Assembly (NCBI GenBank): GCA_028719825.1
Contig: JAQYLW010000043.1
Location: 1-42,869, forward strand
Origin: Spirochaetales bacterium
GTDB taxonomy: Bacteria > Spirochaetota > Spirochaetia > Sphaerochaetales > Sphaerochaetaceae
Length of the DNA stretch: 42,869 bases
Direction of reading: 5' to 3'
A program made the position numbers and the translations under genes. The number at the start of each line of letters is the position of its first letter. The first letter of the stretch is position 1. The notes under the pieces are model-generated. The model was given only the letters and a program-made list of their open reading frames with translations. It was not told where the DNA came from and made no database searches. Shown one piece after another: positions 1 through 14,044 of this stretch.

Positions 1-118
1 CTTGTTCATCATAGCAGCCTATATGGTTTATTTCATACCCCTTTGATGAAAGATGAGCTTTGATTTTATCAACAAGGGATAAACCGCCGTGATCGTTTGC
101 CAAAATTACTTTTTTCAT
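1..118 (-). CDS. rpiB: Ribose-5-phosphate isomerase B, 5' part only
   Basis: Only the first 39 codons are in the window; the gene runs off the left edge. Read on the minus strand it begins MKKVILANDHGG, which matches the RpiB/LacAB N-terminus, where the Asp-His pair contributes to sugar-phosphate binding. The family interconverts ribose 5-phosphate and ribulose 5-phosphate in the cytoplasmic non-oxidative pentose phosphate pathway. The start codon overlaps the terminal TGA of the extended asd frame (ATGA at 115-118), so the two genes are translationally coupled. That coupling also supports 115-117 as the ancestral asd stop. The assignment rests on a short N-terminus but the motif is characteristic. 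Confidence 0.8.
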   Translation of the reverse strand, partial: MKKVILANDHGGLSLVDKIKAHLSSKGYEINHIGCYDEQ

Positions 119-1134
119 ATCAAATTGTACTTTTTAAGGAAGGTTTCGGCATTCTGTATTGAACCGCCGGCTGCTCCTTTTACAATGTTGTTGACAAGAC
201 AAACAAAACCAATCTTGTTGTTTACATTCTTAAGTCTGACGGTATACACCACCATGCCACGAGGATCTCACAAAAATGAGAAGTTCTGCTGAGGAGATGT
301 ATTTTCTGCAGAATACACTATGCTCTGTTTAGGCGTTGACGGTGTTTCATATGGCAGAGAGAAGTTTTTCCAATCCTGAATGACATCTTCAATTTCGGGC
401 GTTTTTCCAAATTCAAGCCAAATTGCTTCAAGATGTCCAAACATCACAGGAACTCTTACGCAATACGGATAAACCTCGCATTTAATATCAAGGATTTTTT
501 GAATCTCCTTAACTATTTTTTCCTCTTCCCCATTGATAAAAGGAATACAGTTATCCGTAATATCGAAAGATGAAAGCCCCGGATAGCCTGCACCTGATAC
601 ACTCTGATATGAACATATATGAATTGACTTGATCCCGTATTTTCTAAGTGGTGCAATAGCCATTGCAAGGCCTGTTGTAACGCAGTTTGCGTTTGTTACG
701 ATAAAGCCTTTTTTAGGATAACCCTGTTCTTCAATTTTTGAAAGCTGTTCCCAGTTTGCTTCAGGAATCAAAATTGGAACATCGTTGTCATATCTGAAAG
801 AAGCTGCATTGGAAAAGACCCAAAAGCCCTCGTCTCTCAAAAGCGCTTCTGCCTCACATGCTATGTTTGCAGGCAAAGCTGAAAAAACAACTTTAACACC
901 TGCTTTTTTCATTTTTTCATATGAAAACTCTTTAATTTCCAAATCGGCGATGTTTGCCGGCATTTCAAACGGCAATACCCAGTGAACACTCTCGTGATAT
1001 TTTTGACCAACACGAGCAGCAGATGCCGTAGGATAAACCAAATTGAACCATGGATGACGTGCTAACATCCACATAAAAACCTGCCCAACGGCCCCGGTTG
1101 CACCTATAACGGCGCACTTAACTTTTTTTACCAT
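115..1134 (-). pseudogene. asd: Aspartate-semialdehyde dehydrogenase with an in-frame TGA
   Basis: The enzyme reduces aspartyl phosphate to aspartate semialdehyde (lysine/DAP, threonine and methionine synthesis). Visible features are the Rossmann motif GATGAVGQ (residues 11-18), the nucleophile Cys151 in NANCVTTG, and His234 in RVPVMFGH. The uninterrupted frame stops after 288 codons at a TGA at 268-270. In the same frame, codons 290-339 continue with unmistakable family sequence (DPRGMVVYTV, then VNNIVKGAAGGSIQNAE), ending at a TGA that overlaps the rpiB start. The total of 339 residues matches the usual length. The break is therefore a single nonsense codon, not a frameshift. It would remove the C-terminal part of the nucleotide-binding fold. 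It could be a real mutation, a sequencing error, or readthrough; CGA to TGA (Arg) is one plausible single change. A GGAGG at 1148-1152 and a GGAAGAAG next to the ATG serve translation, and a TATAAT lies at 1185-1190 on this strand. Confidence 0.85.
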
Positions 1135-1234: not shown

Positions 1235-1951
1235 ATGAGTATACTGTATATCGTAGCAACGCCCATAGGCAATTTAGACGACATTACTCTTAGGGCCTTA
1301 TCTACTTTTAAAAATGTAAACATAATCGCGTGTGAGGACACTCGTATAACAGGCACACTTCTTGCTCACCACGGAATCACGGGGAAAAAACTTATAACTC
1401 TTGCAGCTCATAACGAAATAAACAGCACAAAAGGAATAATAAAGCTTCTTGAAGAAGATAATGACGTTGCACTTTGTACAGACCGTGGAACTCCGGGAAT
1501 AAGCGATCCCGGAGAAAGGCTTGTTGAAGAAGCCTATAATAGAGGCATTAAAGTAATTCCCATCCCAGGTGTATCCGCCACAACTACGCTTATATCCGTT
1601 GCAGGCAACATAGGCAAAACATGGATGTTTGAGGGGTTTTTACCAAAGACGGCAGGTAAGCTTACACGTCGTCTTGAAGAATTGATGAGCTTCCCTTGTT
1701 CATTTGTTATATACGAATCCCCCTTTAGAATTTTAAAAACCCTTGGGGCAATTACCGAAATAGATAAAAATCGTATAATAGTTGTGGGAAGGGAACTTAC
1801 AAAATTACACGAGGAAGTAATAAAGGGCACAGCAGAGGAAATATACAATGAATTTGCTAAAAGGGATGCTATAAAAGGAGAATTTGCCATTATAGTATGC
1901 CCAAACACACCACAACGGCAGGACGATAAATCTAATCAAGAAATTTGTTGA
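1235..1951 (+). CDS. rsmI: 16S rRNA 2'-O-ribose C1402 methyltransferase RsmI
   Basis: RsmI is an SAM-dependent methyltransferase of the tetrapyrrole-methylase fold that modifies C1402 in the decoding centre of 16S rRNA. The protein starts MSILYIVATPIGNLDDITLR and carries ACEDTR, TDRGTPGISDPGE and IPGVSA, all family hallmarks. At 238 residues it is shorter than the usual roughly 275-290; the catalytic fold looks complete and only the small C-terminal extension is missing. There is no Shine-Dalgarno site; a TATAAT sits 6 nt upstream. Its last 20 bases overlap the 3' end of the convergent ACT-domain gene. Stop codon is TGA. Confidence 0.93.
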   Translation: MSILYIVATPIGNLDDITLRALSTFKNVNIIACEDTRITGTLLAHHGITGKKLITLAAHNEINSTKGIIKLLEEDNDVALCTDRGTPGISDPGERLVEEAYNRGIKVIPIPGVSATTTLISVAGNIGKTWMFEGFLPKTAGKLTRRLEELMSFPCSFVIYESPFRILKTLGAITEIDKNRIIVVGRELTKLHEEVIKGTAEEIYNEFAKRDAIKGEFAIIVCPNTPQRQDDKSNQEIC

Positions 1952-2591
1952 GTACGTCGTAAGCTCTATGAGCGTTCTCATGGCTTATTACAAAGGCCAT
2001 CTTGTTGTGAGTTGAATATATTTCGTAAACATTTATGTTTTCGTAATACAAACGTTTAAATGCTCTATACAGAATACCCTCAGTTTCAAGAAAACCGCTA
2101 CTTCTGAATGTAACAACTATACAAGAGAGATTCGATATCTTTGATAATACCTGTGCTTTTTTGAACATTTCTTCACATAGCACGCGATTTTTTTCGCTTG
2201 TTACAATAGAGATTTCATCTCCGCTTTCCGTGATGTTTAAAAAGTTATCCGTTCCGGAAACAATGCGGTTAAATCTGTTTAGAATATCCCTTGTAACCTC
2301 ACCTTCACTTTTTATATTTATGGCAAAGATACTGCTTGTCATAACCACTTCGTAATCGATGGAGTTTACGCTGATGGGCTGTTTTGAATCATCTTTTTCC
2401 AAATCCTGAACCGCACGCTTAATGTTCATAAATAAGGCACCCTTGTTTACAGGTTCACCCATGAACGCTTCTGCATCCTCTTTCATACTGTCGGCAAGGG
2501 CTGAGAGATTTATTATACCCTTTCTTAAAAGATACAAAAGAGTTTGATCCCTTACTATGGAATTTTTAACAAAGACTGATAATCTTGGCAT
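1932..2591 (-). CDS. ACT-domain-like protein, possible amino-acid-responsive regulator
   Basis: 219 residues, third gene of the fabD-nrdR operon; its ATG overlaps the nrdR stop (TAATG). Residues about 15-65 are helical with a possible winged-helix character. The C-terminal 70 residues (from about NLSCIVVTF) show the alternating strand-helix pattern of aspartokinase-type ACT domains, including a hydrophobic start strand, GILYRAFKRLYYENINV (helix then strand), and a final strand followed by a helix. The middle section (about 85-145) may be a second ACT-like unit. ACT domains usually bind amino acids or other small ligands. I recognise no specific family, so the regulator role is inference. No signal peptide or membrane segment is present. 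Confidence 0.6.
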   Translation of the reverse strand: MPRLSVFVKNSIVRDQTLLYLLRKGIINLSALADSMKEDAEAFMGEPVNKGALFMNIKRAVQDLEKDDSKQPISVNSIDYEVVMTSSIFAINIKSEGEVTRDILNRFNRIVSGTDNFLNITESGDEISIVTSEKNRVLCEEMFKKAQVLSKISNLSCIVVTFRSSGFLETEGILYRAFKRLYYENINVYEIYSTHNKMAFVISHENAHRAYDVLNKFLD

Positions 2592-13933: not shown

Positions 13934-13944
13934 AAAAAAAAAAA
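13934..13944 (-). terminator. U-tract terminator of SRP RNA
   Basis: Eleven consecutive T on the minus strand immediately after the closing stem of the SRP RNA. The long RNA hairpin itself can serve as the terminator stem. Confidence 0.7.
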
Positions 13945-14044
13945 GCGACGGCGAGTATCCGAGCTCACGCATATCTGTCCTACCGCTGCTGTTTTCCAAC
14001 CCTGACGGGGTTCAGAAGATATACGTAGTCGGCTCACCGTCACC
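13945..14044 (-). ncRNA. ffs: Signal recognition particle RNA, small bacterial type (4.5S)
   Basis: A 100-nt element on the minus strand folds into one long hairpin. The 5' GGTGACGGTGAG pairs with 3' CTCGCCGTCGC using G-U wobbles. The apical core has the SRP signature: GTCAGG, a GTT/AAC stem closing a GGAA tetraloop, then AGCAGC, with AACCCC 5' and GGTAGGAC 3' as in the asymmetric-loop region bound by the Ffh M domain. The RNA with Ffh directs signal-peptide-bearing ribosomes to FtsY. Ends are set from the stem and the following T11; they could be off by a few bases. Location next to dnaX-recR is a common bacterial arrangement, here divergent. Confidence 0.93.

Follow-up and report, generated by a model that had tools for sequence, protein, structure and literature searches.

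Organization of the asd locus

The stretch of DNA analyzed here (the window) comprises positions 1 to 42,869 of contig JAQYLW010000043.1 (42,869 nucleotides), from a Spirochaetales genome of 1.15 Mb that is distributed over 92 contigs and is 94% complete. The tail of asd and the start of rpiB lie at the left edge of this contig, as follows.

1 to 118, minus strand: beginning of rpiB, which is truncated at the contig end and overlaps the normal asd stop as ATGA
118 to 1134, minus strand: frame of asd (aspartate-semialdehyde dehydrogenase [Asd]), 339 codons, interrupted at codon 289

On the reverse strand, asd runs from the ATG at 1134 through codon 288 to a TGA at 270 to 268. Another 50 sense codons follow before the normal stop, a TGA at 117 to 115 that overlaps the rpiB ATG (118 to 116). 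The initial annotation had pointed out both the in-frame TGA at 268 to 270 (codon 289 of 339) and the intact frame downstream of it as far as rpiB, and both are borne out; the tail is true Asd sequence. Read through the TGA, the frame aligns without gaps with the homologs of two genomes of the same genus, at 87% identity over 339 amino acids with G001 and at 74% identity with G002. The NAD-binding (PF01118) and dimerization (PF02774) domains that identify Asd are found in the truncated frame of 288 amino acids, which passes the Pfam cutoffs with 98.8 and 68.9 bits, respectively, and also in the frame continued through the TGA; a complete, uninterrupted Asd frame is missing. The gene is present as a single copy, and neither a second intact copy nor an overlapping contig was found in the genome.

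The protein resembles the branch of Asd with solved structures (2ep5 and 1ys4; PF01118 plus PF02774) in the full-length alignment of the read-through frame and in both Pfam domains, and we count the overlap of asd with rpiB as a further likeness to Asd systems. It differs from known Asd proteins in that it departs from the spirochaete relatives at three invariant residues and its open frame ends at codon 289 of 339.

A cluster of G-to-T changes in asd

The gene was compared with 93 homologs of the Sphaerochaetaceae type (85 distinct sequences), several of them from relatives titled Sphaerochaeta, Pleomorphochaeta, or Ornithospirochaeta. The comparison revealed the following differences in the vicinity of the TGA.

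271 to 273, minus strand: TTG (Leu288) in place of the TGG (Trp) of all relatives, a single-base G-to-T change
268 to 270, minus strand: in-frame TGA (codon 289) in place of a Gly codon, which is GGN in 85 of 85 distinct relatives
238 to 240, minus strand: GTC (Val299) in place of the GGN (Gly) of all relatives, a single-base G-to-T change
226 to 228, minus strand: AAT (Asn303) in place of the AAG, AAA, or GAG of relatives, a single-base G-to-T change relative to both G001 and G002

All four changes are from G to T on the coding strand, and they span 46 bases (the patch, 226 to 273). Apart from the window, 106 asd columns are invariant among the relatives; the window departs from three of these, which lie together in a span of 12 codons: W288 is replaced by Leu, G289 by a stop, and G299 by Val, each residue being invariant in 93 of 93 relatives. 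The change of K303 to Asn, four codons past G299, is not one of the three. The statement that a single codon was the only lesion is therefore wrong, because codons 288 to 303 hold four G-to-T changes, three of them at invariant residues. The TGA is real in the assembly but was misdescribed, and its membership in this cluster points to a single event or an artifact rather than to one nonsense codon. Separately, the asd gene of a rumen Spirochaetales metagenome-assembled genome (L116) has changes at 8 otherwise invariant Asd residues, three of them adjacent (193 to 195), which may reflect either a local error or a divergent stretch.

In order to evaluate the cluster, private changes were defined as differences of the window at asd sites where G001 and G002 agree. 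Outside codons 288 to 304 there are 80 such changes, 28 of which are G to A and only 1 of which is G to T; inside, 4 of 7 are G to T. Four of the five private G-to-T changes in asd thus fall within 51 nucleotides, and for this clustering alone a permutation test gives a P value of 0.003, which is indicative only because the borders of the patch were chosen after the data had been seen. An independent yardstick was provided by 93 genes with at least 80% identity to G001 (29,487 segments of 17 codons). Four nonsynonymous single-base G-to-T changes occur in one such segment of asd, and the other genes never show more than two. One other gene has four C-to-A changes in one segment, all of them conservative replacements.

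A one-step origin of the TGA by template switching in a quasi-palindrome was also considered. On the minus strand, the TGA is part of TCTCA-TTTTTG-TGAGA, an inverted repeat with two perfectly matched 5-bp arms, and the TCTCA arm could have templated TGAGA across a short hairpin. We consider this highly improbable, as it would explain only one of the four G-to-T changes; codons 288, 299, and 303 lie outside the arms of the repeat.

Arguments against readthrough and recoding of the TGA codon

The initial annotation had offered a nonsense mutation, readthrough, and a base-call error as explanations; it missed that the TGA is part of a four-change cluster, and readthrough is now disfavored. A full-length Asd would be made if the TGA were read through, in a programmed or leaky manner, or recoded as Sec, Trp, or Gly, and it is true that the frame past the TGA is open and conserved and that the relatives carry Gly at codon 289. 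However, alignment to related genomes, which had been proposed as a check, shows a TGA at this codon in none of the 93 relatives, so that the conservation among orthologs expected of a selenoprotein or of programmed recoding is absent. The TGA replaces an invariant Gly codon, and the neighboring invariant Trp and Gly are lost as well, which recoding would leave unexplained.

The decoding machinery points in the same direction. TGA terminates 32 of 115 conserved genes in the genome, in agreement with the earlier remark that it is a normal stop elsewhere in the window, and RF2 is intact. A code in which TGA specifies Gly or Trp was rejected on these grounds, together with the lack of other genuine internal stops in the conserved genes compared. 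As for selenocysteine, selA was not found in the 94% complete genome, and a scan of all but about 30 of the contigs detected neither a tRNA-Sec nor a suppressor tRNA. The RNA downstream of the TGA shows no unusual structure and folds no better than shuffled sequences (z = 0.85). With RF2 intact, TGA serving as a normal stop, selA not found, and the TGA present in no relative, readthrough or recoding is very unlikely.

State of the genome and of the aspartate pathway

We next consider the possibility that a very recent, genuine multibase G-to-T cluster inactivated asd in the strain or in part of the population, for example, through oxidized guanines on a single-stranded stretch or through one error-prone repair patch. 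Loss of genes of this branch is known in the family. Both asd and dapA are absent from a genome of 1.2 Mb (G008; 97% complete), and in G001, of the same genus as the genome studied here, asd has been kept but no dapA match is found. This pattern suggests piecemeal loss of the diaminopimelate (DAP)/lysine branch in small spirochaete genomes, and the present genome, at 1.15 Mb, is also small. Moreover, a full-score MutY was not found in any of the 37 genomes searched in the family, which could favor G-to-T changes. This shortfall does not single out the present genome as a MutY-loss mutator, since it is common to all 37 genomes, and yet no relative carries a stop in asd.

Other observations argue against a genuine loss. 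The remainder of asd shows no decay, and the changes that the lineage itself has accumulated in asd are mainly G to A rather than G to T. The frames of aspartokinase, dapA, and dapB are open, as is a frame of 715 amino acids that matches aspartokinase plus homoserine dehydrogenase. Among conserved genes, no other genuine internal stop was found in the approximately 680 kb (682 kb) compared, and a frameshift scan returned a single doubtful short frame; the other candidate stops appear, from our reading of the alignments, to lie in chance antisense or upstream-extended frames. Genome-wide decay was accordingly rejected. No match to plasmid records was obtained. Compared with the nonsense pseudogenes of reduced, host-associated genomes, the case is alike in the small genome, the biosynthetic gene, and the relatives lacking asd or dapA; it is unlike them in that asd is free of decay elsewhere, no other conserved gene checked is interrupted by a stop, and the pathway is otherwise retained.

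Taken together, a genuine mutation cluster is possible, at less than even odds. Its fuller version, in which a real, strand-specific G-to-T burst knocked out asd in one event in a reduced spirochaete that otherwise retains the DAP and threonine pathway, so that pathway loss would be seen at its first step, seems to us somewhat unlikely.

Contig ends and probable sequencing error

The patch lies 226 to 273 bases from the end of the contig. We consider the most likely explanation (probability of roughly 0.6) to be that the TGA is one of several clustered base-call errors, G to T on the coding strand, at 226 to 273. Such errors would have been fixed into the consensus because the assembly is a draft of the metagenome type, in which this sequence close to a contig end would rest on very few reads, and the real asd of the organism would then be intact. 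The changes are clustered, are of a single type, and break invariant residues within an otherwise intact gene, pathway, and set of conserved genes; four changes of the same type in 46 bases near the end of a draft contig most likely represent a sequencing-error patch or, failing that, a group of mutations that arose recently and are private to this genome. Low coverage and miscalling at the patch are what we infer.

Published error profiles fit this explanation, on the assumption that the assembly derives from Illumina reads. In HiSeq data, a sequenced G is mainly miscalled as T, and substitutions cluster (PMC4787001); swaps between G and T rank among the most frequent HiSeq errors, and the authors relate this to the sharing of a laser by the dyes (PMC3334598). 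The patch resembles these errors in that G appears as T, several times in a short stretch, and near a contig end, and it differs from them in being known from the consensus alone. Against miscalling, the contig runs on for 225 bases beyond the patch, and the majority of the G bases within the patch are unaltered. In addition, differences, radical changes, and G-to-T changes are not in excess in codons within 300 bases of the ends of other contigs, which is consistent with a genuine mutation cluster. A general excess of errors at contig ends was therefore rejected, and the assembly is not generally error prone there. Because the G-to-T and clustered error profiles fit but the other contig ends show no excess, we favor the artifact and leave a substantial minority share to the mutation cluster, which would be an ordinary recent pseudogene; neither represents a new kind of system.

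In a comparison of the ends of 61 contigs, 13 of which were represented by stretches truncated at 20 kb, no terminal sequence common to the contig of the window and the 60 others was found. Thirty of the 122 ends of these stretches have an exact match of at least 127 bases in another contig and so suggest that assembly overlaps were left unresolved; the left end of the window has no such match.

These results indicate that it is unsafe to deduce auxotrophy for lysine, threonine, or methionine, or recoding, from the TGA in asd. They also illustrate that comparison of the surrounding invariant residues can expose a nonsense codon in a draft genome as part of a patch of errors or mutations of one type.

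Additional features of the window

Near asd, positions 1932 to 2591 (minus strand) encode a protein of 219 amino acids with a C-terminal ACT domain slightly under the Pfam cutoff. It weakly matches the regulatory end of aspartokinase, with no match to the N-terminal part, and its gene adjoins two others, one nrdR-like and one encoding a fabD-like acyltransferase. The sole Rfam result in the window is a bacterial small SRP RNA (RF00169; 60 bits) at 13943 to 14042 on the minus strand.
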